Assembly (NCBI RefSeq): GCF_003201875.1
Contig: NZ_QJKD01000004.1
Span: 124,001 to 188,000, forward strand
Direction of reading: 5' to 3'
Origin: Hungatella effluvii
GTDB taxonomy: Bacteria > Bacillota > Clostridia > Lachnospirales > Lachnospiraceae
Length of the DNA stretch: 64,000 bases
Positions 1,997-29,347 of this stretch are shown here, in pieces (position 1 is the stretch's first letter; each line of letters starts with the position of its first letter). The notes under the pieces were generated by a model. It made no database searches. It was not told the origin of the DNA and was given only the letters and a program-made list of their open reading frames with translations. Both the position numbers and the translations under genes were made by a program.

Positions 1997-2925
1997 GTTC
2001 CGTCACCTCCGTATTCAATGGGCTTGCTCAGCTTCATGATCTGCGTAAAGGCAAACAGGATGATGGCTGCGCAGATGGCCAGGGCAATCTTGCCCGGCGT
2101 GGTGTAGATCAGGGTGTGGAACCAGTCCTTGTTGAGGAAATAGAGTAGGGGGACGTTGCCGATCACCAGGAACATCATGGTGATGGCTTCCCGCCTGGGC
2201 CCCTGCATCATGGCTTCCAGCTCCGACTGCACCACACGGACATCGGAGAATTTCTGCACAATGGTAGGCAGCGTGTTCTTCATGGAACGGTCCGACTGGC
2301 ACTGGATCAGGATATTGGCCCATTCGTGGAATACCCGGTTGGGTATCTTCATTTTTAAGGAGTTGATGGCGCTGGTCATGTTGGCATTGATCAGCTCGCT
2401 CTCATATACAAATGCCTCGAAGTTTGCCCTGATCGGCTCATTGATGTAAGGCAGGTTCTCCCTTACGGAGCGCAGCAGGTCCTCTGTCCGCAGGTAGGAA
2501 GTGGTGACGATGGAGATCGCGGTCTCCAGTTCCTCGTTCAGGTGCTTCTTATAACTGGCCGCCGTGCTGCGCAGATACCATACGGGAACCAGGGAAAAGC
2601 CCAGCCCCAGGATGGGGACCAGGTACACGTTGTTAATCAGCAGCGCCAGCACCGCTCCCACGGCGAACAGGATAAGCGTCAGCCGGGTAACCGCTTCATA
2701 GCGGTCTGCCCGCCCGGTATCCTTTAAGATCTGTTTGATCTCATAGCCCTGGTTGAAAAACCCTCTGGCAGGCGTGCCCATGATGACATTCAGCTCATCC
2801 GACAGGGTGGCGGTTTTCCTTCCGGTGTTGAAGATAACATCCGTAAAATCCCGCGGCTTTACTTCAAACAGTGCCAGAAGCCCGGCACTCAGCAGGGCAA
2901 AACAGATAAGATAAATCCAGTGCAA
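1993..2925 (-). CDS. tadB: TadB-like inner-membrane platform protein (T2SS F fold)
   Basis: A 310-residue protein with an N-terminal helix (2-19), a helix pair around 88-125 and C-terminal helices near 250-292; the cytoplasmic T2SSF-type domain lies between. The start is a TTG with GGAGGTGG 8 nt upstream. It lies directly after the TadA/CpaF ATPase gene and overlaps the tadC-like gene, the canonical tadA-tadB-tadC order. It is expected to be the partner of TadC in the pilus platform. Family and order agree; nothing appears truncated. Confidence 0.85.
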   Translation of the reverse strand: MHWIYLICFALLSAGLLALFEVKPRDFTDVIFNTGRKTATLSDELNVIMGTPARGFFNQGYEIKQILKDTGRADRYEAVTRLTLILFAVGAVLALLINNVYLVPILGLGFSLVPVWYLRSTAASYKKHLNEELETAISIVTTSYLRTEDLLRSVRENLPYINEPIRANFEAFVYESELINANMTSAINSLKMKIPNRVFHEWANILIQCQSDRSMKNTLPTIVQKFSDVRVVQSELEAMMQGPRREAITMMFLVIGNVPLLYFLNKDWFHTLIYTTPGKIALAICAAIILFAFTQIMKLSKPIEYGGDGT

Positions 2926-2940
2926 CTATTCCACCTCCTT

Positions 2941-4341
2941 TCACGGTGTCTTTTTTCCGGATGTGCCTTTACGGGGCGGCCCGGTTTCTAAAAATTCCTG
3001 CAGCTCCTTGTGGGAGATCCCGTTGTCCAGGAGCCGTTTTTTCAGTGTCTCGGACATGGCTTCCATCCTGCGGTGCCTGCCTACCACATGGGCATTTCCG
3101 TCTTCATCGGTCACGTTGTCCACCACTTCATATTTATAAAGGGAGCGGTACAGCAGTTTTCCGTCCAGATAGTCCTCCCCTTCGATGATCTCCATGATCT
3201 TCCGGGAACGGTCCTCCAGCTGTTTGGTGAACACCACCACGGGATAGGCTTCCACCATGATCTGCATGAGGATGGAATCGTCCATGCTGTATTTCCGCTT
3301 GGCCAGGGTCATCATGCGCCGGTAGGTGCTTTCGCAGGAGTTGGAGTGGATGGTGGTGCAGACCGTGTGGCCGGTCCGGGAGCTTTCCGCTGCCGACAGG
3401 CTCTCTGCCGCCGACCGCATCTCCCCCACGCCGATCACGTCCGGATGCTTGCGCAGCACCCGCTCCAGAAGGAAGTCCTGGTTGATGTTCATGGACGGGT
3501 TCTCATGGGGGCGGGTCAGCAGGTGGACCACGGAGTTTAAAATATTCCCGTCTTCATCCCTTTTTACCAGGTCAAACTCCCGGCTGCCCTCCTCAATGGT
3601 GATGAGGCGGCGGTTGTTGGGCACATTGGATAAGAGCCATGCCATGATGGTCGTCTTTCCGGAACCGGTGGAGCCGGCGATGCACACGGAAACCCCATAG
3701 CGGATGCAGGCGGTCAGGAAATGGAGCATTTCCGGCGTGGCGCTGCCGGAATCCAGGAGCTTTTCCTCGGATACCGTATTCTGGTTGACGATACGGATGG
3801 AAGCGTTGATTCCCACCTCCGAATCCACGATGGGCGTCTTATCTACGGAAATACGGATGTTCTTGTCCAGAAAGCCGATGACGGAGGGCATGGTGTCGTC
3901 AATGACCATGCCGCAGGCGTTCAGCATACGCCGCACCACATCGATGGCGTGCTGGGGAGAGGAAAACCGGTCCGGTATCTTGATGCTGCGCCCGCTGTTC
4001 ATAATGACTTCGATATCGTTATAGGCATTGATGTTCACCTCCTCCACCCCCGGCTGGTAGATCCATTTTTTCAGGAAAGAGTAGCCGGCCATGTCCTCAT
4101 AAAGCCTGGCACAGAGCTGTTCGGTGGTAAGCCTTTTGATGGCGTATTTGCGTTTTACCAGATACTGCACCATCAGCTCCTTTAATACCGTGACTGCCCG
4201 TTCCGAATCATTTTCCCCGGCGCCGGCGATGGTGGAGGCATGGTTTTCGGAAAAGTAGCGCTGTACGTCCTCCAGCACCTGCTCATAAGTCAGGGCGCCG
4301 TTTTCCACAGGGGCAAAGAAAATATCATTCAAGTTATTCAT
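2941..4341 (-). CDS. tadA: TadA/CpaF secretion ATPase
   Basis: A 466-residue hexameric-type secretion ATPase. It has a Walker A motif GSTGSGKT at about 223-230, an acidic box after it (ITIEE, 247-251), a Walker B-like DVIGVGEMR at about 301-309, and a His box GHTVCTTIHSNS at about 324-335, as in CpaF/TadA and other VirB11-like ATPases. The all-alpha N-terminal region of CpaF is present. It powers pilus assembly through TadB/TadC. The start codon overlaps the stop of the TadZ-like gene (ATGA), and TadB follows 15 nt later, so these genes are co-translated. All catalytic motifs appear intact. Confidence 0.93.
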   Translation of the reverse strand: MNNLNDIFFAPVENGALTYEQVLEDVQRYFSENHASTIAGAGENDSERAVTVLKELMVQYLVKRKYAIKRLTTEQLCARLYEDMAGYSFLKKWIYQPGVEEVNINAYNDIEVIMNSGRSIKIPDRFSSPQHAIDVVRRMLNACGMVIDDTMPSVIGFLDKNIRISVDKTPIVDSEVGINASIRIVNQNTVSEEKLLDSGSATPEMLHFLTACIRYGVSVCIAGSTGSGKTTIMAWLLSNVPNNRRLITIEEGSREFDLVKRDEDGNILNSVVHLLTRPHENPSMNINQDFLLERVLRKHPDVIGVGEMRSAAESLSAAESSRTGHTVCTTIHSNSCESTYRRMMTLAKRKYSMDDSILMQIMVEAYPVVVFTKQLEDRSRKIMEIIEGEDYLDGKLLYRSLYKYEVVDNVTDEDGNAHVVGRHRRMEAMSETLKKRLLDNGISHKELQEFLETGPPRKGTSGKKTP

Positions 4342-5195
4342 CCTTCGTATTCCTCCCCGTCTTCGTCTTCGCTGTATGCGTCCTCTTTATCTTCCTCCCC
4401 TCCGTATGCCGCCTCATCATATCCGTCCTCATAGCTTTCCTCCTCCTGCTGCTCGGCAAGCTCCATCTGTTCCAGGGCATCCAGCACCCTGTTTAAAGAG
4501 GCGGTATATTTGGAGTTGCAGTATTTGATGGCCTGGAACATGCCCCCTTCAGTAGCGCAGCGGTCAATCTCCTTCCCATAGGGCAGGAGGCCGTCAAAGC
4601 CGCCGATGATATAGCCCATCTCGTCAAAGGCATGGAAGGGGCGGGCCATGCCGGCAAAGGTTATATGCTCATGGTAATGGAAACGCCCGTCTGCCAGTAA
4701 GGGCTGGTGCGCTTTCAGGTAATTGATGCCTTTTAAATCCGGCGTCACGATGCGGAGCACCAGGTCCCCGGATTCAATGGCGGCAGGGGTGAACACGTTG
4801 GTCATAACAGAGCCGCAGTCCAGGATGACGTAATCCACCAGCTTCTTTGCGGATGCAATGAGCTGCAGGGCCATCTGGTAGTCCGTTTCCGGGTAGCTTA
4901 ACGGGTTCTCCCCGGCGCAGTATCCCATAAGGCCGATATAGGGGTAGCTTTTCAGCACCGTCACATGGCTGGCTACCAGGGATGTGTCGATCTCCACGCT
5001 GGTTAATACCTGGCCGATGGAGGCGGCCGTGGTGGTGATCTGCTCCGGGAGCCAGACCGGGAGCATGGGGATGCCCGGCTCCCCGCTTATGATGATGGCC
5101 TTTCGTTTGTCACGGGTCAGCGCTTTGGCAAGGATGCAGCAGAACATGGATTTGCCGCTGCCGGGGCTGCCCCAGACCGTGATTGTTTTGGACAT
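4338..5195 (-). CDS. tadZ: TadZ/CpaE-like P-loop ATPase (ParA/MinD superfamily)
   Basis: A protein of about 285 residues that opens with a P-loop (WGSPGSGKS, residues 8-16) and carries a D-x-G-S-V hhh motif (VILDCGSV) matching the switch/Walker B region of MinD-like ATPases. In Tad systems TadZ/CpaE localises the machine at a pole. The start at 5195 has AAAGGAGG 10 nt upstream; an ATG at 5204 would sit on top of that site. The last 45 residues are strongly acidic (Glu/Asp/Tyr rich), an unusual tail that may be a docking segment. There is no receiver domain. Position directly before the TadA gene supports the call. Confidence 0.8.
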   Translation of the reverse strand: MSKTITVWGSPGSGKSMFCCILAKALTRDKRKAIIISGEPGIPMLPVWLPEQITTTAASIGQVLTSVEIDTSLVASHVTVLKSYPYIGLMGYCAGENPLSYPETDYQMALQLIASAKKLVDYVILDCGSVMTNVFTPAAIESGDLVLRIVTPDLKGINYLKAHQPLLADGRFHYHEHITFAGMARPFHAFDEMGYIIGGFDGLLPYGKEIDRCATEGGMFQAIKYCNSKYTASLNRVLDALEQMELAEQQEEESYEDGYDEAAYGGEEDKEDAYSEDEDGEEYEG

Positions 5196-18120: not shown

Positions 18121-21100
18121 CTATCCGGCTTCATTCTGCCGGCGCATCCGCTCCACGATGTCCTTTAACTCCCTCCGGTCTGTGGTGATCAGGTCTTTTT
18201 CCAGGGGGCTTGCCTTGAACTCCACCATGATGTTATTGTTGTTGGTACTGATCAGGCCATTGCCCCGTTCAAAGTGGGTGACTTCCATGATCTCCGCATC
18301 GGAGAGGTGGAGGGCGCTCTGCACGCGCATGGCCTCGTCATCCTCTAGGTTCAGGATGATCTTGGTCTTGGAGTTGTTGATGATGCCTTTCCCAAACCGC
18401 CCTTCATCCAGGTTGAAGAAGTCATTCAGGTCCTGGCTGGCGCAGACGGCAGAGCCGCCGTATCCGCGGATGGTCTTGAAGATCTCCAGGACAAAATCCC
18501 CCGCAAGGCGCGTGCCCGTGGCGCCGGCGCCGGATAAGAGCTGCCAGCACTCGTCAATGAAGATGGTCTTTTCCTCGGTACGGTCTTCCTTGGCCCGGTC
18601 CCAGACAAAGTCCAGGGCAACGAACATCCCCACGGTGAGCAGGTCCCCGGTCAGGGAGGAAATATCCAGTACGGTATATTTATTGTCCAGTGACACGTTG
18701 GTCTGCTGGTTGAAGGTGCTGGCGGAGCCGTTCACCAGACGGTTCAGGATATTGGCAAGACGCCTGGTGGCAGCGGCTTTCTTTAAAATCTCATAAAGGT
18801 CGCCCAGCACCGGCATTTCCCGGTATCTCCCCGGGGCTTTTGGGTCAGCCAGGGAAGCGTTGTCATGGGTGATGCCCTTTTTGTTGTAGGTGTGGATCAG
18901 GGCCTCATCCAGAAGCTGGCGCTCCTCATGGTTCATGTCCGGGATCAGCAGGCTGAAAAAGATATGGAGCCGCTGGATCTTCTCCGCCAGTTCCGAAAGC
19001 TGGATGCCGGGGCCATCCAGCAGCTCGTTCACGGTGCGGTCCACCTGCCGGATCTCCATCACGTTAATGCAGTGTGGGCTTGCCGGGGAGACCTGGATAA
19101 ATTCGCCTCCCACGTTGGCGCAGGCCCGGTGGAACTCATGCCCTTTTAACGGGGCGATGATAAAAATGGGGATTCCCTTGCGCCGCATCCGCAGGGCCAT
19201 AAGCTGCATGGTAAAGGTCTTGCCCGCGCCGGAAGTCCCCAGGATTGCCATGTTGGCGTTTTTGTAGACGGCGGAATTGAAGATATCCACAATGATCAGG
19301 GAGCTGTTGTATTTGTTCACCCCCAGAAGGATGCCGTTGTCATCGCACATCTCGTAGCTGGTAAAGGGATAACAGCTTGCCGCGCCCCCGGTTAAGAGGT
19401 TGCGCCTGCTGCGCTCATACAGCCCTTTATCCACGGATACCAGGGGCAGGGCGGTAAGGAAAGCCTGTTCTTCCCGGAAGTGGCAGGAGGATACCCGCAT
19501 GTCCTGGGAGAGCAGGAGTTTCTTCATCTCGCTGACCTTCCATTCCAGGTCCTCTTCATTGGGCGCCGTAATGGTAATTAACAGGTTCATAAAGTAAAAA
19601 TCTTCATTGTCTGCCAGCCCCTCCTTCAGGAAATAGCCGCTCCGGATGGCGCTGTCGATATCGTCAAAGTCCGTGTTGGTATCGCTGGCGTCCTTGATCC
19701 GGGAGCGGTTGATGCGCAGCTGCTGGCCCACCTTCTGGATGATGCGCTCCTTGGGCTGGCGGGAGAGGAACATGTCCAGGTCGATCCCGTCCCCGGCATT
19801 GACCATCAGGCTGAGCCAGCCGGCCGGCACATGGGTCTTATAGCCGTCCGAGGGGATCAGCAGGTAGGCATAATACAGCCCGTCGATGCAGATGTACCTT
19901 CCATGGGTAAAGTCAATGCTTGCAGGGGCGATAAATTCCCCGGCCGGGATATGGTCGATCTCCGCCTCCCTCCCGTCTGCCAGATACCGGGCCACCACCT
20001 CTTTTGCCCGGACAGGGAGGGGCTTTGTGGCGCTTTCCTTCCGGCACAGGAGGTTGTAGAGCACATCTATGGTAAACTCGTCCTCGTTGTCCGGCAGCAC
20101 CACTTCATTCCCGCACTGGCGCAGGTAATTGGATGCAGTATGGACGGCGGACTGCAAAGAACCGATGGCCTCCCCTTCCTCGTCCGTGCGCCTTGCGTTC
20201 CCCCAGGGTTCATATTCAAAGATCAGGAAGAACCGGCGCGTCACCGCTTCACGGGAACAGATCTGCTGGATGAACTGCAGGTAGTCCTCCTGCATGAGCC
20301 GGCACTGTTCGTTGATCTCCTGTGCCATCTCCCGGCGCACCGTGTCCATGTGGCGGCCGATGTCCGCCCGGCGGGTCAGCACCTTGAACTGGAGCTTTAC
20401 GGGGCTTATCTTTAAATAGGAAACAAAGGAATAGATGATGCTCCTCTGTTCTCTGGCACTCCTGAGCAGGAAGTTGATGGGGACCACCTCCACCACCTTG
20501 ACATAGCGGTGGTCTTTTGTGTAGATGATGCCGTTTTCAATTTTGCGGATGGGCAGGTAGTCCGCCACCGGGTTTAAGTGGGTAAACTGGGGTTCCAGTG
20601 TACGGAGCGGTTTTCTGGCAGAAGGATTCCTGCCGGACTGCCTGTTTTTATGGTCTGCTTTTTTGGATTTTGCAGATGCTTTCCGCGTATCTGTTTTTTT
20701 GTTTCCTTTTTTTTCGGCTTTTCCCGTTTTGGGGTTCTGGGTCCTGCCGTTTTGGGGTTTCTGTGTCTGGCTGGGGCGGAGCTTCTGCCGTATCTCATAT
20801 CCTTTCACCTGGTCGAACTCTGCAGGAAAATCATCCTCCCCTTTGCGTTTCCAGCCGGATATGCCACCGATCCTGTCATTTTTGCCGGAAGTGTTTTTTC
20901 CAGCCGGCTTTGTATTTTGGGCAGCATTTTCTGATGCCGCAATTTCCCCACTGCTGTATTTTCCTTTCCGGTGTTCTTTTCTCTCTTTTTTTGAGCGGGG
21001 AGTTTTCCGCATGGTCTCCTGGCTTTCGCCGCCCACGATACGGCGGTTCTTCATATATTTTAAGAAGATGACCAGGAAGGACGACAGGCTTTCCCCCGAT

Positions 21101-21327
21101 ATGCCGATCAGGGCAAACAGCACAAGGGGCAGGGTAGTCAGGCACAGCACGATGATCCGTGCGGTCAGGCCAAAGGGCAGAAACAGGAAGATTGGCAGCC
21201 CGGTCACTACCGCCAGGATGCCAGCCTCGATCACGTTCCTTGCCCGGAACATGCCGCCGAAAAACGTGCCCGTGTCTACAAAGTTCGGCGGGATGATATA
21301 GGTATCATGGTCATTTTGATGGTTCAT
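18121..21327 (-). CDS. virB4: VirB4-type conjugation ATPase with N-terminal PrgI-like membrane domain
   Basis: A 1068-residue protein. Residues 1-100 hold a PrgI-like part with two adjacent hydrophobic helices (about 33-52 and 56-78), a region usually encoded as a separate small gene. A basic linker rich in Lys, Arg, Asn and Gln (about 105-250) follows, then the VirB4 body. The ATPase core has Walker A GTSGAGKT (697-704) and Walker B IFIDE with Asp925-Glu926. VirB4 energises T4SS assembly and substrate transfer at the membrane. It lies after the C39-peptidase gene and before a repeat-containing gap. All motifs look intact. Confidence 0.93.
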   Translation of the reverse strand: MNHQNDHDTYIIPPNFVDTGTFFGGMFRARNVIEAGILAVVTGLPIFLFLPFGLTARIIVLCLTTLPLVLFALIGISGESLSSFLVIFLKYMKNRRIVGGESQETMRKTPRSKKERKEHRKGKYSSGEIAASENAAQNTKPAGKNTSGKNDRIGGISGWKRKGEDDFPAEFDQVKGYEIRQKLRPSQTQKPQNGRTQNPKTGKAEKKGNKKTDTRKASAKSKKADHKNRQSGRNPSARKPLRTLEPQFTHLNPVADYLPIRKIENGIIYTKDHRYVKVVEVVPINFLLRSAREQRSIIYSFVSYLKISPVKLQFKVLTRRADIGRHMDTVRREMAQEINEQCRLMQEDYLQFIQQICSREAVTRRFFLIFEYEPWGNARRTDEEGEAIGSLQSAVHTASNYLRQCGNEVVLPDNEDEFTIDVLYNLLCRKESATKPLPVRAKEVVARYLADGREAEIDHIPAGEFIAPASIDFTHGRYICIDGLYYAYLLIPSDGYKTHVPAGWLSLMVNAGDGIDLDMFLSRQPKERIIQKVGQQLRINRSRIKDASDTNTDFDDIDSAIRSGYFLKEGLADNEDFYFMNLLITITAPNEEDLEWKVSEMKKLLLSQDMRVSSCHFREEQAFLTALPLVSVDKGLYERSRRNLLTGGAASCYPFTSYEMCDDNGILLGVNKYNSSLIIVDIFNSAVYKNANMAILGTSGAGKTFTMQLMALRMRRKGIPIFIIAPLKGHEFHRACANVGGEFIQVSPASPHCINVMEIRQVDRTVNELLDGPGIQLSELAEKIQRLHIFFSLLIPDMNHEERQLLDEALIHTYNKKGITHDNASLADPKAPGRYREMPVLGDLYEILKKAAATRRLANILNRLVNGSASTFNQQTNVSLDNKYTVLDISSLTGDLLTVGMFVALDFVWDRAKEDRTEEKTIFIDECWQLLSGAGATGTRLAGDFVLEIFKTIRGYGGSAVCASQDLNDFFNLDEGRFGKGIINNSKTKIILNLEDDEAMRVQSALHLSDAEIMEVTHFERGNGLISTNNNNIMVEFKASPLEKDLITTDRRELKDIVERMRRQNEAG

Positions 21328-21430
21328 GTAGTAGTACCTCTCTTTCGCAGTGTGTCAGTTCCGGCCATGGGCAGATGCAGAGCGGAACCGTCCGTAAACA
21401 GGTTTCATGGCCGGACTGCGGCAGGGCGGC

Positions 21431-22807
21431 TCATCCGATGATCCAGAAGGGGCCGCCCGCGCCGACACGTCTGCTGGCTTCGTTTAAAATAATGGAAAGG
21501 TCCCAGAGCTGTCCGCTCCGCCGGTAGCTGGCGGGGTCCGCCACCAGGATCTTCCCGTCTTGCACTCCCCGCAGCACGATAAAGTGGCCGCCGCTTGTGA
21601 AGTGTCCCTTTGACATGATGGCCACCACCAGCTTCCCGTCCGCCAGGGCGTCCAGTATCCGCTGGGGCTCCGAGGGGGAACAGCCGGAAACGGCAAGCCC
21701 CCAGTGTGCGGCCGCCCCGGGGATCAGGGCATGGTAGGAGCCGCTGCCTTTGCACCAGTAGCCGTTTTCATACGCCCACCGGGCCATCTGTTCCGGGTCC
21801 ACCGTCTCGCCGGCCAGGGAGGACACCACCATCGCCATGGAGGTAGGCCCGCAGCCGTAGCCGCCGATATGGTCGGTGCCATAGGGCTTCCCGGCATAGC
21901 GTTCATCCAGCTGGTTGAAATAGACAACCTCCGTGCCCCCGTCCGTGAAACGCACATCGCCCAGGGAGGGGATGCTGTTTCCTTCCCAGTTCTCCAGGTT
22001 CTGTATAAGTCCGTCTCCCAGAAACAGGCTCAGGTTCTGCGCATAATCGGCGGCAAGCTCCTTCTGTTTATCCGTAAGGGCGAATACCTGGTCGGCAAAG
22101 TAATCCTCCCCGTTGTAGGAAATGGTATAGATCATCCATTTCTCCGATACGATGGTCTCTTCCCCGGTCTCCGGGTCCTCCACGGTCTTCTCACGGATTT
22201 CTTCCGTCCGCCTGTAGGAGTAGAGATGGGATTTCCCCCGGCGCATGACAGCCGCCATGTCCGCAATGGAGATATCCGCGAAGTCTTTTTCCTTTGCCGC
22301 GCAGTACTGGGAGACAAACAGGTTGGCATTGTATACAGGACTTGTCTCATAAGGGTTAATGACTTCCATGCCGTCCCCGTCCGAGGCTGCAAAATCCCGT
22401 TCAATCCGCTCCATGACATCCTCCATGCCTTCCCCCAGGATGGTGATGATGGTATAGGTGATGGTGTTGGCATTTTCTATAAGGGCATTTTCGCTGTTCA
22501 GGATGGGCGTTTCCGGGTCTGCTGGGGAAAAAGCGGAGGAAAAGCCGTCAAAGAGCAGGCCGGGGAGCATAAGTACAAACAGCACCGGGAGCAGCAACAG
22601 CACAGCGGCGGCCGCCACAAATTTCCCAATCGATTTCCGTTCTTCCCATAACGCCCCGGCCACAGCCCCGTAGGGGCCGCCGGCAGCGGCGCCTTTTGCA
22701 GCCCCGGATACCGCCTTTCCCGCTTTCAGGGCGCCCCTGGCCAGGTGTGCCGCGGATGCGCCGGTTTCCAGGGCTTCTTCCAGCCCGTTTTTCTGTTGTT
22801 CTGCCAT
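21431..22807 (-). CDS. membrane-anchored C39-like cysteine peptidase of the T4SS
   Basis: 458 residues. A Gly/Ala-rich cytoplasmic start, one membrane helix (about 63-87), an extracytoplasmic domain of about 200 residues, then a C39-type papain-like domain with Cys319 in GGYGCGPTSMAM, His408 in GGHFIVLRG and Asp424 in VADPAS. This is the same place in the operon where other Gram-positive T4SS loci encode VirB1-like wall hydrolases, so it probably opens peptidoglycan for the channel. The cleaved bond cannot be told from the sequence; C39-like domains can cut peptides or wall cross-links. Its start abuts the stop of the preceding gene. Confidence 0.8.
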   Translation of the reverse strand: MAEQQKNGLEEALETGASAAHLARGALKAGKAVSGAAKGAAAGGPYGAVAGALWEERKSIGKFVAAAAVLLLLPVLFVLMLPGLLFDGFSSAFSPADPETPILNSENALIENANTITYTIITILGEGMEDVMERIERDFAASDGDGMEVINPYETSPVYNANLFVSQYCAAKEKDFADISIADMAAVMRRGKSHLYSYRRTEEIREKTVEDPETGEETIVSEKWMIYTISYNGEDYFADQVFALTDKQKELAADYAQNLSLFLGDGLIQNLENWEGNSIPSLGDVRFTDGGTEVVYFNQLDERYAGKPYGTDHIGGYGCGPTSMAMVVSSLAGETVDPEQMARWAYENGYWCKGSGSYHALIPGAAAHWGLAVSGCSPSEPQRILDALADGKLVVAIMSKGHFTSGGHFIVLRGVQDGKILVADPASYRRSGQLWDLSIILNEASRRVGAGGPFWIIG

Positions 22808-23821
22808 TTATAACCTGTCCTTTCTTTTCGGTGCCGGCGGCATCTTTTTCACGATGGATTCTTTGTAGGCGATAGAGCCGTCTGCCGCCATATAGGGTGA
22901 CTTCTCCACGGCATCCTGCGCATACTGTTTATACCAGGAAGTGCCGTCCACGGCCTGCACGGTGGCGTATGCCCCTTCCGGCGGGGTGTACTGGTCCGCA
23001 TGGTACATGCCGAAGGAAATGCCCTCCGGGTGTTCCCCGGAGATCTCCGTGCCGGTGATGCGCCCGCCCCCGATTTCTACATTGGTAAAGGACGGGACAT
23101 GCTGTGCACCCTCTTCCAGGGCGGCATAGCCCATGTAGGAATGGAGGGCCTGGGCTGCCTTTTCCCCGGTCATGGAACCCACGGACGCCATGCTTCCGGT
23201 CGCCACCGTGCCAATCACGCTGTTAGCAAAATCGCCGCCCTTTGCAACGGAAGACGCATACATGTTTCCCCCAATGCCTGCGGATACGGCGGATGCGAAG
23301 CCGCCGATACCGGTTTTGGAAGTCCGTTCACTCTGCCGGTCTGCCTGCGTGTGGGTAGTAGCCGTGCGGATGGCGCTGTTTGTGACCTGCCGGCTGACCA
23401 CCCCGGCAAGGCCGCCTGCCATGAATCCGCCCGGACTGCCGGGGCTTCCGGGTGAGCCGGAGCCTGCATTCACATGGGAGGAGGAACTGCTGTAGCCGCC
23501 GCCGAAGTGCTGGCGGGAAAAGTTACGGACCGCCCCCACGCCCCTTGCGGCGATCATGGCCTCCGCAATCATGGAACCGCCCGTATGCCCCACGTTGACA
23601 CCCAGGCTGGACATGAAGGAGTCAATCTTCTGGGACACCTTTAAAAATGCGATGGCACACAGGAACCAGACCAGGACATTGCCCGATACCGCTTCCCGGC
23701 CCGCCGCATCCACCTGGGCCTGGGCATCGCTCTCCGAAAAGGCAAAGGTCGTCTGGCAGGACAGGCAGAGGAGGAGTGCCACCAGAAAGGCCGCAGTCAA
23801 TATTTTTTTATATCTTTTCAT
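22808..23821 (-). CDS. T4SS membrane protein with signal peptide and Gly/Ser-rich cytoplasmic tail
   Basis: About 337 residues. A signal-like helix (about 8-28), a second helix near residues 45-65 (GNVLVWFLCAIAFLKVS), then a long Gly/Ser/Ala-rich region with a GSGSPGSPGSPGG stretch and a C-terminal soluble part. It resembles the CD0419/TraL-type proteins that accompany VirB6 in clostridial elements and may extend that channel component. The ATG at 23821 is preferred because the first ATG sits on the ribosome site (GGAAGG). It is flanked closely by the VirB6-like and C39 peptidase genes. No enzymatic motif is seen. Confidence 0.6.
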   Translation of the reverse strand: MKRYKKILTAAFLVALLLCLSCQTTFAFSESDAQAQVDAAGREAVSGNVLVWFLCAIAFLKVSQKIDSFMSSLGVNVGHTGGSMIAEAMIAARGVGAVRNFSRQHFGGGYSSSSSHVNAGSGSPGSPGSPGGFMAGGLAGVVSRQVTNSAIRTATTHTQADRQSERTSKTGIGGFASAVSAGIGGNMYASSVAKGGDFANSVIGTVATGSMASVGSMTGEKAAQALHSYMGYAALEEGAQHVPSFTNVEIGGGRITGTEISGEHPEGISFGMYHADQYTPPEGAYATVQAVDGTSWYKQYAQDAVEKSPYMAADGSIAYKESIVKKMPPAPKRKDRL

Positions 23822-23845
23822 GGTTTTCATCCTTCCTTTCGTCTC

Positions 23846-24556
23846 TCATAATGAAAGCGGGTTTGCAATAAAAGCCCCGACCATGCTCGTGAACAGGCGC
23901 AGGCACCAGGCATTCATGAGCAGGAGGAAGACCTGCCCGCCGAACATCCGGCACCAGGATTTGAAAATGTTAGCGGTGGACTGGGAGGCCCCCATGGAAA
24001 AAGCCACAGGCGCCGTGTAGACCAGCACCCCTAAAAGGACATACCGTTCCGCCGCTTCAAAAAGGAGCTTTAAGTAATTCCATGCCAGCACCAGCACGAC
24101 GATCAGGGCGATCAGGGCCACCGCCCCGTTGGCACAGACGCCGATGATGGCCAGCATCACCGAATTGAAATCGGCAAAGCTTAAAGCCGGCAGGTCGGAA
24201 TCCATGATCCAGTGGTACGGGGTGCCGCCGATCTTTAAGACCGTATCCACGATGCCGTCCGAGAAGTAGGCCAGCAGGATGAAGAGGACGGAGCGGATGC
24301 TCAGGCGCACCGGGTCCTCCGCCTCAATGCCTGCCCCCAGCCCGAAGTTTTTGAACAGCTGCCATACCCAGTTTAATAAGATGATGCCGATAGCCAGCGC
24401 CACAAAGACTTTATACATGGTCTCCGCGGCGGGGAAGTAGCGGAGGAATACGGTCATGTCGCAGCCCAGCGCCCCCAGGACCGAAGTGGTGACAAGGTCA
24501 AGGCCGTGCATCACCTGTTCGGCGATCCATTCCACAATGCCGTCTAAGATACCCAT
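23846..24556 (-). CDS. VirB6/TrbL-like polytopic membrane protein
   Basis: 236 residues with about six hydrophobic segments, including one around 45-67, one near 85-105 and a cluster between 135 and 235. The hydrophobic layout and gene order (after a VirB2-like gene, before VirB4) fit the VirB6/TrbL channel component of Gram-positive T4SSs. A short amphipathic N-terminus (MGILDGIVEWIAEQV) is typical of the clostridial versions. GGAGTG precedes the ATG. It should form the inner part of the transfer channel. The call is from topology and context, since this family is poorly conserved in sequence. Confidence 0.75.
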   Translation of the reverse strand: MGILDGIVEWIAEQVMHGLDLVTTSVLGALGCDMTVFLRYFPAAETMYKVFVALAIGIILLNWVWQLFKNFGLGAGIEAEDPVRLSIRSVLFILLAYFSDGIVDTVLKIGGTPYHWIMDSDLPALSFADFNSVMLAIIGVCANGAVALIALIVVLVLAWNYLKLLFEAAERYVLLGVLVYTAPVAFSMGASQSTANIFKSWCRMFGGQVFLLLMNAWCLRLFTSMVGAFIANPLSL

Positions 24557-25173: not shown

Positions 25174-25249
25174 AGTGTAACATATCTCTATTTACGGGGA
25201 AAGAGCAGAACCGTGCCAATTTTGTGTGGAATTGTGCCAATTTTGTGCC
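25174..25249 (-). promoter_or_regulatory. promoter and phased operator of the T4SS operon
   Basis: Minus strand: -10 TACACT (25179-25174), -35 TTTCCC (25202-25197), spacer 17 bp. Boxes related to GGCAC lie at 25213-25217, 25224-25228 (degenerate CACAC), 25234-25238 and 25245-25249, spaced 11, 10 and 11 bp. A block of roughly 35 bp is nearly identical to the one at 10493-10530. Confidence 0.7.
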
Positions 25250-25381
25250 AGAAAAACAGATTACGGAATATATTAAGAAAAATTAGATGAACGTTATTTT
25301 GTAAAACATACTATAGAATACAGCTTATATATGAGGGGTCATTTTTATAAATTATAGATACCCAGGTTCCTGCATATCTGA

Positions 25382-25387
25382 TATAAT
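25382..25387 (+). promoter_or_regulatory. -10 element before the first RNA module
   Basis: TATAAT ends 7 nt before the G that opens the closing stem of the first 58-nt module, placing a transcription start at the first base of the stem. No good -35 is seen. Confidence 0.45.
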
Positions 25388-25394
25388 ACAAAAG

Positions 25395-25452
25395 AAGATG
25401 CAGTATTTAAGGAGGACTACCCTGGCAGCCCGGTCACAAAAATAAGCATCTT
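25395..25452 (+). ncRNA. candidate structured RNA, module 1
   Basis: A 58-nt unit bounded by AAGATGC and GCATCTT (8 bp when the flanking G-C is included). An inner UAUUU / AAAUA pairing and a core reading ACTACCCTGGCAGCC lie inside. A second 58-nt unit of the same design lies at 25501-25558, with its closing stem changed on both sides. No open frame of note covers it, and it lies upstream of the HEPN-motif gene on the same strand. The strand is assumed from that gene. It could also be a DNA element such as a protein-binding palindrome. Confidence 0.45.
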
Positions 25453-25500
25453 CCAGTAATTTAGTATATGCCATAGCAAATTGTATTATGTAAAATTAAA

Positions 25501-25558
25501 AAGATACAGTAGGCAAGAGAGTACTACCCGGGTAGCCTGTTTCAAGTCTATGTATCTT
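25501..25558 (+). ncRNA. candidate structured RNA, module 2
   Basis: A 58-nt unit bounded by AAGATAC and GTATCTT (8 bp with flanking A-T). The core ACTACCCGGGTAGCC is shared with module 1 and contains the palindrome CTACCCGGGTAG; AGGC / GCCU can pair around it. Relative to module 1 the last closing base pair changes from G-C to A-T on both sides at once, which supports pairing. TATTAT and TAAAAT just upstream (25484-25496) could be -10 elements. It ends about 105 nt before the HEPN gene start. Confidence 0.45.
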
Positions 25559-25663
25559 TAACTGCTCTAATCATAACCGATACATAGGGCTTTGTCAAGC
25601 AGAAAAATACAGGAAAACAGCCAGTACCAAAGCTGCTCTGGCAGAGATACGAGGAGAAAACAG

Positions 25664-27499
25664 ATGGAGAACAGCGGAATCCAAAAGTGCAGAAAATATT
25701 TTATATTTAAAATTCAGGATTTGGTAAATAATTCATACCACACATTAGAGGAAAAGCGTCAGGAGAGCCTTCTTAAATATATTGAAATCTGCATAGACAC
25801 TTATGATGAATTGAGAATGTCATTAGATCAGAGTAAACTGAACCGTTCTTATGAGGGGCTGTTGGACGGACTGGATGCCCAGTTACAAAAACATCCTTTC
25901 CGACTTCTGGATCTGTATAAAGATGATTTTTCCAGACTTCATTGCCTGTTGAAACCGGCTAACGGAAAAAGAGAGAAGGAAAGCGAAAAAGAGAAAGAAA
26001 ATGGCAAAGGACCAGAGATTCATAATATCCATAGAAATCTGGTTGCTTTAAAGAAAAAGCTAGAAGCCGAAAATATGATTGAGCGTTACATAGAATGCCT
26101 ATTGAAGGAACAAGTTTTCAGTAATATGGACTACCTTATGGAAGCTCTGGTTAGCGATTTGTTAAATATGGGTTATTCTATGGCTTATATTGTAGAATAT
26201 TTTAAAAACCAGCAGAAGCGATTTGTAGAGACTGGAGATTGTGAACAAATCATCAGGGATATGAAAAATTTGAATAAAATTCCCGTAGGGTTCAGAATCT
26301 TTATAAAATATAAAGTTGATAGTGAAACTCAGCAGGAACGGGCGCGGGAATTGTTAGGACGGCATTTTGAACTTGTATCCGAAGAAGTTTTGCCAGCCAA
26401 TAATCAGTGGATGCAGGACGGGTGGCAGGTTGCTACCAAAGTGTATCTGGCACTTGATGCATATAAAGCTATAGACATGGCAAGAAAGGAATTCCAGTCA
26501 GTCAAACAGCTCTTTGATATGTGGCAGGCTACTCAAAACTTTATCAGGGACGATATATGGTATGCCTGGGAGGACGAAACAGGTTTTCATAAAATTGGAT
26601 TGGGCAGTGTGGATAATACAAGAATGCTGTCCTATATTGATAACAATTATCGTAAACAGATGGAACGCTTTTTGCAGCTTGAAAAGACTGTTGTTAATGA
26701 AAATAAGGGAACACTGGAAAGGGTACTTTATACCCTGCATACAGCTAAGGGTTATTCCATACAAAACAGATTTTTGAATTTTTGGTCATCGTTGGAGTAT
26801 ATTCTTCATCCGTTCCCTAAATACACGATTATCGAAAAGGCAAGGGTAATCGTACCGGAAGTATTTAGTCTCTTCTATCTTAAAAATAAGCTGAATATAT
26901 TCTGGACTCGCTTGACTTATTGTATGGAGAAAAAAGGATATAAGGAAAAATATCCTGCATTAGATTTTTTCTGTACAGACTGTAGAGAAGGAAAGGATTA
27001 TTCCACAAGAAAAGTAATATCTTACCTGTTAGATAAAGAGAAATATGCCCCCTTACTCTCAGAACTATCCTTTCACATTGTTTTGGAGAGGGAATGTATG
27101 GAACTGATTATGCTCTTAACGGAGCCACAGAAGGCATCTAAGGCGATAAAAGAATATTACGAAGAAATCAGGCATGACTTGAATTATATTTATCGGCTAC
27201 GGAACCAACTGATTCATTCTGCAAAGGATATAGATGATTCATTGGAATATATCAGTTTTCGGTTATACAGGTATGTAAATTCTGTTCTGTCAACGATTTT
27301 ATATTACGAGGAAAAGAACAGTGCTTACAGTATTATAGATATACTTAGTTCTATAGATGCGACTTATCAGAATTATAGCAGTAAATTGTTCATTGAAGAG
27401 CCAAGGAAAAAACAAAATAATAAAGAACAAGAAAGCAATACGATTACGGAAGAAGAAGGCTACCGCTTAGTAAGGCCCAAATATCTTTTCTTAGAATAA
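25664..27499 (+). CDS. large HEPN-motif protein, candidate RNase toxin/defence protein
   Basis: 611 residues from an ATG with GAGGAG 7 nt upstream (the frame is open 24 codons further to a TTG without a ribosome site). It is almost entirely helical and AT-rich compared with the element backbone. Near the C-terminus a helix ends in R513-N-Q-L-I-H518, the R-x4-H catalytic signature of HEPN ribonucleases; about 130-140 residues earlier the segment FLNFWSSLEYIL resembles the first helix of ApeA-like HEPN domains. The N-terminal 350 residues, with a Lys/Glu-rich spacer near 105-125, are not recognised. No signal peptide or membrane helix. Two RNA-like modules lie immediately upstream and a strong terminator follows. 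RNase activity is inferred. Confidence 0.65.
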   Translation: MENSGIQKCRKYFIFKIQDLVNNSYHTLEEKRQESLLKYIEICIDTYDELRMSLDQSKLNRSYEGLLDGLDAQLQKHPFRLLDLYKDDFSRLHCLLKPANGKREKESEKEKENGKGPEIHNIHRNLVALKKKLEAENMIERYIECLLKEQVFSNMDYLMEALVSDLLNMGYSMAYIVEYFKNQQKRFVETGDCEQIIRDMKNLNKIPVGFRIFIKYKVDSETQQERARELLGRHFELVSEEVLPANNQWMQDGWQVATKVYLALDAYKAIDMARKEFQSVKQLFDMWQATQNFIRDDIWYAWEDETGFHKIGLGSVDNTRMLSYIDNNYRKQMERFLQLEKTVVNENKGTLERVLYTLHTAKGYSIQNRFLNFWSSLEYILHPFPKYTIIEKARVIVPEVFSLFYLKNKLNIFWTRLTYCMEKKGYKEKYPALDFFCTDCREGKDYSTRKVISYLLDKEKYAPLLSELSFHIVLERECMELIMLLTEPQKASKAIKEYYEEIRHDLNYIYRLRNQLIHSAKDIDDSLEYISFRLYRYVNSVLSTILYYEEKNSAYSIIDILSSIDATYQNYSSKLFIEEPRKKQNNKEQESNTITEEEGYRLVRPKYLFLE

Positions 27500-27752: not shown

Positions 27753-28031
27753 TTACATTCTGGGTAATTTCAGTAAATTGTCATGTATGGTATCGTTTGC
27801 TTCTGAACGAACATACTTTTCTCCCCGATAACTTGTTGCGGGAACAACATACGGAAAAGGAGAAATATTAACTTTAATACTGTTAGGATTTGTCTTCAGA
27901 AAGTCGTGAAGAACAGCTTTGGGAAAAAATCCCGGATTATTGCATCCATCCACATAGATTTCTGCGATTTCCTGTGTGTTGTTAGAGTTTCTGCAGCCAT
28001 TCTGCATTCTGATCTTTTTTGCGTACATCAT
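27753..28031 (-). CDS. DUF3892-like protein
   Basis: A 92-residue protein with the features I know from DUF3892: a start with K-K-I-R-h-x-N-G-x-x-x-N, a central DGCNNPGFF segment, an IKVNISPFP strand and a C-terminal GEKYVRS-x-x-N-D-T-x-x-D-N-L-L-K-L-P. GGAGG precedes the start. It forms a two-gene unit with the 41-residue basic protein and is read divergently from the XRE/ImmA pair, from a promoter whose -35 lies in the XRE operator. Its role in the element is unknown; the operator suggests that it is repressed together with the regulator genes. Confidence 0.75.
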   Translation of the reverse strand: MMYAKKIRMQNGCRNSNNTQEIAEIYVDGCNNPGFFPKAVLHDFLKTNPNSIKVNISPFPYVVPATSYRGEKYVRSEANDTIHDNLLKLPRM

Positions 28032-28364: not shown

Positions 28365-28712
28365 ATGAAAAATACATCATTTGGGCATTACCTCGTACAA
28401 TTAAGAACTGAAAAAAAGATTAGCCAGCGAAAACTGGCGGAACTGGCAGGAGTAACAAATTCTACAATCAGCCGTATTGAAGCAGATGCCGTTAAACCTG
28501 ATCCAGCAACACTGGAGAAGCTAGCTGCGGCTTTACAGGTTGATAAGGCATTATTATTAACAAAATGTGGATATAGCGAAATACCAGAAGAATTTGTTAT
28601 CATAGCCCGTAAGACAGGGGAGTTGTCAGAGGAAAAGAGGAAAGAGGCATATAAAATATTTAATGATACTATAGACAAATTCCTTCTTGATGATGAAGAT
28701 GAGGAGGAATGA
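28365..28712 (+). CDS. XRE-family helix-turn-helix repressor
   Basis: 115 residues. The first 62 form a Cro/CI-type helix-turn-helix domain (QRKLAELAGVTNSTISRIE as recognition unit), and the rest is a helical region ending in an acidic tail (LLDDEDEEE). AAAGGAG precedes the ATG. It overlaps the ImmA-like protease gene by a few bases or abuts it, the known pairing of a repressor with its antirepressor protease in elements such as ICEBs1. It probably binds the three GTTCC-N4-ATGCAACA sites just upstream and holds the element quiet. Which signal relieves repression is unknown. Confidence 0.85.
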   Translation: MKNTSFGHYLVQLRTEKKISQRKLAELAGVTNSTISRIEADAVKPDPATLEKLAAALQVDKALLLTKCGYSEIPEEFVIIARKTGELSEEKRKEAYKIFNDTIDKFLLDDEDEEE

Positions 28713-28714
28713 TA

Positions 28715-29347
28715 ATGTTCGAGTGGTCAAAAATAACTTCATTGGCTTATTTGACGCTATTGGAACTGAATATACAAGAGTTTCCAATACCGGCAAAAAA
28801 AATAAAATGTAAAGGGGTAATGATAAGCAGTTATCAAAATTATGCTAAAAAAACAGGGCTTTCGATGGATGAAATTACATTGGGCCATGAATTGGAAGAT
28901 GCTTTTCTTTTAAAAGGTTTACGTCCAGGACTCACACTAATTTTATATAATAAAGAAAAATATGGGCCACGCATGAAACATACTCTTTGGCATGAAATAG
29001 GTCATGTTAAATGTGAACATAAAAAGCACAGTGAGAAAGAAGAAATTGAAGCGCACTTTTTTGCGGCACAAGCCAATGCACCTAATGTCCTTATTAAAAC
29101 CATTGCGAAACGAGGCTATAAAATAGATGTACATTTTCTTATGGAATGTTTTGGTCTAAGCGAAGAAGCCGCACAAAAGAAAATGGGCTATTTAAACAAA
29201 TATGGTTTTGAACATTCCAACGAGTATGATGATATTGTGCAGATGCAATTTGCAAATTATATTGATACGAAATACCCACCTAAAACAAAATACTTTTATG
29301 ACGATTATTATGATGATTTAGACAGAGAACGTGAAAATTGGTATTAG
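28715..29347 (+). CDS. immA: ImmA/IrrE-family metalloprotease
   Basis: About 210 residues with the zinc-protease motif H-E-I-G-H (residues 93-97 of this start) and a downstream E-x-E-A-H-x-F segment containing the third ligand, as in COG2856 proteins. The ATG at 28715 lies 8 nt after AGGAGG; an ATG two codons earlier is also possible. Paired with the XRE repressor, it is expected to cleave that repressor and induce excision and transfer of the element, as ImmA does in ICEBs1. The Asp/Tyr-rich C-terminus is not familiar. Terminator downstream. Confidence 0.85.
   Translation: MFEWSKITSLAYLTLLELNIQEFPIPAKKIKCKGVMISSYQNYAKKTGLSMDEITLGHELEDAFLLKGLRPGLTLILYNKEKYGPRMKHTLWHEIGHVKCEHKKHSEKEEIEAHFFAAQANAPNVLIKTIAKRGYKIDVHFLMECFGLSEEAAQKKMGYLNKYGFEHSNEYDDIVQMQFANYIDTKYPPKTKYFYDDYYDDLDRERENWY

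Follow-up and report, generated by a model that had tools for sequence, protein, structure and literature searches.

A putative small-RNA gene opposite the leader of a divergent apeA gene in Hungatella effluvii, with counterparts in several ApeA lineages

The window analysed here, a stretch of 64,000 nucleotides from a Hungatella effluvii contig (NZ_QJKD01000004.1), contains a plus-strand gene for a large HEPN-motif protein, preceded by a leader in which two similar stem-loop modules lie one after the other (Table 1). The gene adjoins a minus-strand block of conjugation-type genes (18121-24556; TraG-like, C39-like peptidase), one of which has a TraG match (18121-21327), and these neighbours suggest that apeA is cargo of an integrative conjugative element. 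Directly downstream of apeA is a small DUF3892 protein on the minus strand (27753-28031) and, close by, a regulator pair composed of an HTH protein and an M78/IrrE-like peptidase (28365-29347), for which PADLOC reports capH (5e-13) and, weakly, capP (5.5e-4).

Judged by sequence homology along its whole length, the product of 25664-27499 is a divergent ApeA-family HEPN nuclease. As a lone query it reaches only Ec4ApeA, and weakly (E 0.092), but profiles of its relatives match Ec2ApeA along the protein length, with E 1.1e-23 (A2, four rows) and E 8.7e-70 (A3, eight rows). A 15-row alignment places the R-N-x-x-x-H catalytic motif in the window protein as RLRNQLIH. Pfam returns nothing that reaches cut-off, and PADLOC gives weak partial matches only, with no match to ApeA. 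A structure model (mean pLDDT 79.7) has no Foldseek match in the PDB at E<=0.001, in a library from which ApeA entries may be missing, so that the fold lends no support to the ApeA identity. The original prediction had looked to HEPN toxins of the AbiF type and to Cas13; the profiles place the protein in the ApeA family instead, no Abi_2 match is found in it by Pfam at E<=10, the abiF RNA family (RF03085) has no match in 25200-25760 at E<=1, and no result pointed to Cas13.

Relatives are sparse in the sampled genomes. With the window's own genome counted, matches were found in 11 of 397 genomes at the level of the family, 3 of 392 for the order (searched with the single protein), 5 of 391 for the class and 9 of 398 for the phylum, and later, smaller samples, which overlap the earlier ones, gave matches in 1/4, 1/3, 1/58, 3/96 and 6/241. 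Viral contigs contained no relatives of the window, L024, L035 or L028 proteins or of profile A2, and none was found in phage records. Among the loci so collected, position was used to fix the start codons of L001 and L036, which are uncertain, and the L012 gene is short (458 aa). The apeA of L002 is broken, being split into pieces (2446-3526), yet both modules are kept; that of L005 (1202-2508) is missing its N-terminal part and no modules were seen, and this locus was excluded from counts. Also excluded were repeats of the same places (L003, L004, L008, L021, L031, L059; L022, L032, L058; L026, L040, L057; L010; L011; L019; L027; L054; L055; L060; L048-L050, L053), the fragmented apeA of genome G1092 (L038/L041/L042), and L051 and L052, which are weak matches to the model R1 discussed below; L017, which has little upstream sequence, was used only for the comparison of hairpin energies.

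Table 1. Features of the apeA locus, in window coordinates.
Feature	Coordinates	Strand	Basis or remark
Possible extended -10 (TGATATAAT) of apeA mRNA	25379..25387	+	Sequence; TGATATAAT also in L009
Module 1, second stem-loop copy, farther from apeA	25395..25452	-	Present in L002, L009/L010; absent from L001
TATACT, possible weak -10 for module 1	25463..25468	-	By eye, 10 nt before stem as in module 2; no good -35
Terminator-like U-run past stem-loop	25492..25502	-	Sequence; detector
Small RNA, predicted to start near 25563 and to measure about 65 nt	25499..25563	-	Start 7 nt past -10, end in U-run
Module 2, putative small-RNA stem-loop	25501..25558	-	Seven copies pair in 90.5% of cells, and in 35/35 cells of the apical helix
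-10 box TATGAT of predicted small-RNA promoter	25570..25575	-	17-base spacing
-35 box TTGACA of predicted small-RNA promoter	25593..25598	-	Plus strand reads conserved TGTCAA
apeA, divergent ApeA-family HEPN protein, 611 aa	25664..27499	+	Family profiles match the solved ApeA proteins of E. coli
HEPN motif RLRNQLIH in apeA	27194..27217	+	R, N, H invariant across 15 aligned relatives

The two modules are, as first described, each exactly 58 nt long, and both copies start with AAGAT[GA]C and close with G[CT]ATCTT. The paired change in the stem between copies is real (A-U against G-C, columns 6-54) and is joined by double changes at four further pairs; the heptamer ACTACCC of the proposed shared core is not special by itself, occurring five times in the window against 4.19 expected. 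A structured RNA tied to the large HEPN protein had been foreseen, and the modules do recur upstream of apeA relatives: both are present in L002, which lies on another contig with different left-hand sequence, and in L009 and L010, and a single counterpart of module 2 is present in L001, whose protein is 66% identical. Two copies are no rule, since L001 has one and one was seen in each other lineage. L009 and L010 are identical at 4,779 of 4,779 bases in genomes placed in different genera, which indicates a recent transfer of the apeA cassette.

When aligned, the modules are better preserved than the sequence that flanks them. Identity between the window and L009 is 47/58 in module 1 and 45/58 in module 2 against 30/48 in the linker and 56/105 in the leader past module 2, and between the window and L001 it is 46/58 in module 2 against 48/105 past it; the contrast with the near-identical L002 is small (56/58 and 53/58 in the modules, 44/48 in the linker and 90/105 in the leader). 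A covariance model of seven copies scores those copies, on which it was built, at 67.5-82.5 bits. Across 10 whole genomes, chosen in most cases because they carry apeA, all six strong matches of this model (E<=8.6e-12) adjoin apeA, while the other six have E>=0.14, three of these being the opposite strand of the same modules. Rfam finds nothing at gathering level over the window. At E<=1 it finds one chance-level match in the leader, overlapping module 2 (Gl_U1, E 0.77, scoring 15 bits where the gathering cut-off is 100), and no match on the hairpins of the 14 other loci scanned, all of them from outside L062-L068.

The modules had been read as RNAs on the plus strand; that reading, or one of them as an element of the mRNA leader, draws on a -10-like TATAAT that does stand ahead of module 1 on that strand (25382-25387), and on a fair plus-strand promoter at L006 (p 0.01). 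A plus-strand promoter scan of the window leader is nevertheless not significant (p 0.14), and the shared structure pairs better on the minus strand. In a structure of 21 pairs common to seven copies, drawn from minus-strand folds, 90.5% of cells are paired on the minus strand versus 77.6% on the plus strand, with slid controls pairing in 30.6-50.8% of cells; because the plus strand attains 84.1% when its own folds supply the structure, the contrast is clear yet not absolute. The plus strand leaves 33 cells unpaired, and 23 of these turn into G.U pairs when the minus strand is read; in the apical helix all 35 of 35 minus-strand cells pair, compared with 71.4% for the plus strand. Counting of pairs over the copies, which the original prediction had called for as a covariation check, is positive: 12 minus-strand cells carry a double change versus a shuffled mean of 5.1, and 0 of 500 shuffles is as high, although the five pairs that carry such a change are not above the shuffles (83 of 500 as high) and the shuffles leave the relatedness of the copies in place. 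Folding energy agrees weakly, being better on the minus strand in 12 of 19 elements and on the plus strand in six, with one tie (p 0.055). Strong promoters and U-runs also lie on the minus strand, and we consider a plus-strand RNA or leader element very unlikely; plus-strand alignments and the model R1 were abandoned after this comparison of energies, promoters and pairing. Hairpin energy as the lone evidence was likewise rejected, 7 of 60 control leaders having z below -5. Module 2 has the look of a minus-strand small-RNA gene.

A further reading is a palindrome bound as DNA by a transcription factor, and the module 2 apex does contain a 12-bp palindrome (CTACCCGGGTAG). This explanation is scarcely credible in view of the G.U pairs confined to one strand, the one-sided bulge and the fixed order of promoter, stem and U-run; moreover, no palindrome is common to the lineages with the same layout.

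In the apeA leader of the window, TTGACA-N17-TATGAT points away from apeA, through the hairpin and into a U-run, the plus-strand A-run ahead of the hairpin being the minus-strand U-run behind it, and its score is equalled by none of 200 dinucleotide shuffles of the leader; module 1 appears to have at best a weak promoter. Hairpins of differing sequence occupy the same place in other ApeA lineages, and in clade 2 (five rows, by hand) one position shows a double change. A sigma-A-like minus-strand promoter was found at all 16 loci, no more than 160 bases from the start codon used, with shuffle p<=0.04 at 15 and 0.10 at L007, and in L012, L023 and L024 it reads TTGACA-N17-TATAAT. At nine hairpin-less ApeA loci the best promoter scores are 3 to 5.5, with p<=0.02 at L045 and L047. 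The predicted RNA measures 65 nt in the lineage of the window, and in the others its length is 58-100 nt, the ends being unreliable for L007, L030, L036 and L037.

These elements were combined in a detector, defined as a promoter score <=2.5, a hairpin of >=36 nt and <=-12 kcal/mol, and a U-run. It is positive at 15 of 16 ApeA loci of RNA-bearing lineages (L007 is missed) and in 2 of 75 control leaders, one of which proved to be the apeA of L062, leaving 1 of 74 controls. The detector was devised after the pattern had been seen, so the figure of 15/16 describes the set and is no blind test, and it is the controls that bound chance. Among the other ApeA loci, 1 of 18 is positive, again L062; hence the RNA is not universal.

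L062 is a Paraburkholderia plasmid, and its detector-positive apeA led to four DNA relatives, L063 (missed by the detector), L066, L067 and L068. The L067 gene is unannotated and the annotated gene of L068 is short (about 299 codons), both having been judged from the gene start alone. The five Burkholderiaceae plasmids have a different RNA in the same place beside apeA, containing an invariant core, and TTGACC-N17-TATAGT is unchanged in 5/5. Identity over 40 columns is 80-85% in the RNA and falls to 23% in the flanks, and in the RNAalifold structure 25/25 pairs are standard throughout the five rows, two neighbouring pairs having changed in a compensatory way (G-C/A-U and C-G/U-A); few independent events are represented, because identity between L062 and L066 is about 91% and L067 closely resembles L068. 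A separate G+C-rich hairpin, the terminator, follows the RNA structure. Directly past the RNA gene, a gene for an HU-family DNA-binding protein occurs on the Paraburkholderia plasmids L062 (544-819) and L066 (365-643).

Since nothing in the layout is more constant than the promoter and the terminator, it might be supposed that the divergent promoter alone matters, short terminated transcription away from apeA serving to dampen the apeA promoter. We regard this as improbable, for the body of the RNA has compensatory changes and kept sequence, and in the Burkholderiaceae the terminator stands apart from the structure that is kept. Computationally, the layout is evident beside ApeA genes of several lineages and selection on the structure of the RNA is seen, and the small-RNA gene, with this computational support, is very probably real.

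In a tree of 24 ApeA proteins, midpoint-rooted and with long branches, RNA-bearing lineages occur to either side of the root; six RNA-free proteins group in a single clade (support 100/99). The RNA may thus have been lost, or may have been gained more than once. A member of that clade, L013, is close to Ec2ApeA (phmmer 1e-47 versus 7.5e-18 for the RNA-bearing L024). The layout is absent from the group nearest Ec2ApeA, in which the detector is positive at 0 of 9 loci, comprising the six-protein clade and L020, L056 and L061, which were grouped by resemblance to it and stand outside the tree. L056 and L061, tried as a positive test, lack the layout, and their N-terminal sequence resembles the RNA-free group. 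Some genes of this group begin shortly after another open frame. At L029 and L039 the detector finds no layout, and it is positive in 0 of 5 Enterobacteriaceae loci (L045, L046, L047, L064, L065), which have a common minus-strand terminator and a partly conserved stretch; TTGCTT-N16-TATAAT was seen by eye in L064. The enterobacterial plasmid ApeA genes of L045, L046 and L065 adjoin the annotated anti-phage gene ppl.

We picture a two-gene unit, consisting of plus-strand apeA and an opposite-strand small-RNA gene that sits within the apeA 5' leader and has its own promoter and terminator. Healthy cells would make the RNA, and its stem-loop would bind the ApeA nuclease and hold it off, as an RNA guard; phage attack would cause the RNA to be lost, freeing the nuclease so that infection is aborted. 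It is likely that the small RNA regulates ApeA in some way, and its role is probably to restrain it. The kept apices are suggestive of how: L028 and L030 have a 17-nt apex in common, their proteins being 46% identical, and modules 1 and 2 have the same apex. Together with the core of the five plasmids, this suggests recognition in trans, most simply by ApeA. The exact L028/L030 17-mer has two matches in viral contigs, which were judged by sequence context to be chance.

The principal rival is a cis-antisense RNA that pairs with the apeA mRNA leader and cuts translation or stability, the protein not binding the RNA. Being encoded opposite the probable apeA leader, the RNA could act in this manner, and the layout would be explained equally. 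At L006, L028, L030, L033 and L037 a distance of 12-22 nt separates the start of its promoter from the start codon used; overlap of the apeA mRNA with the RNA is therefore probable, and antisense control may operate also or instead. Pure antisense pairing needs no fixed sequence and would allow the apex to drift freely, whereas the apices are kept, which counts for restraint of the protein; we rate antisense action as rather unlikely, and direct RNA-protein restraint as the main mode of action at somewhat short of an even chance.

Small RNAs encoded around toxin genes are familiar in other arrangements. SymR is a small RNA encoded opposite the symE leader, and lowers the translation or stability of symE mRNA by pairing; the present case resembles SymE/SymR, an antisense type I system, in its layout, but the toxin is unrelated and the RNA apex here is conserved as if read by a protein. 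In type III toxin-antitoxin systems (ToxIN, CptIN) the RNA is encoded on the toxin strand, upstream of the toxin, as tandem repeats; these too have an RNA with the role proposed here, restraint of an RNase toxin, whereas promoter and fold here place the RNA gene on the minus strand, divergent from apeA.

The original prediction invoked the same-strand upstream RNA of AbiF, and the restraint of a HEPN toxin by RNA is indeed known there: in PMC12373285, RCd22 of Clostridioides difficile carries two motif copies and restrains AbiFCd in both ways, since it lowers expression in cis and also neutralises the protein in trans. AbiF/RCd22 (Rfam RF03085) and the window locus have in common a HEPN protein, a small structured RNA at the 5' side and two motif copies. 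The AbiF RNA shares the strand of abiF and is transcribed together with it, while the RNA described here accompanies another protein family, has its own minus-strand promoter and shows no RF03085 match. With the solved anti-phage proteins Ec1-Ec4 ApeA of E. coli (9hxb to 9hxn) the window protein shares the whole-protein profile match and the C-terminal RxxxxH HEPN motif; it differs in being very divergent and in having on the opposite strand an RNA gene that is missing from the group nearest Ec2ApeA. The ApeA/BMEI1217 family figures in PMC3710099, and a preprint title in the reference list of PMC13405049 has deoxydinucleotides activating ApeA. An RNA partner of ApeA is not described in the titles and abstract openings found in part of the open-licence literature, and a report of one outside that literature is possible.

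The case illustrates how a near-symmetric stem can mask the coding strand of a small RNA. It also bears on how ApeA stays silent in healthy cells. We tentatively propose that ApeA nucleases of Bacillota and Pseudomonadota may be RNA-guarded, with loss of the RNA as the signal of infection, and that the family may have both guarded and RNA-free branches. If this is true, the RNA-controlled nucleases AbiF and Cas13 would be joined by ApeA as a second HEPN family.
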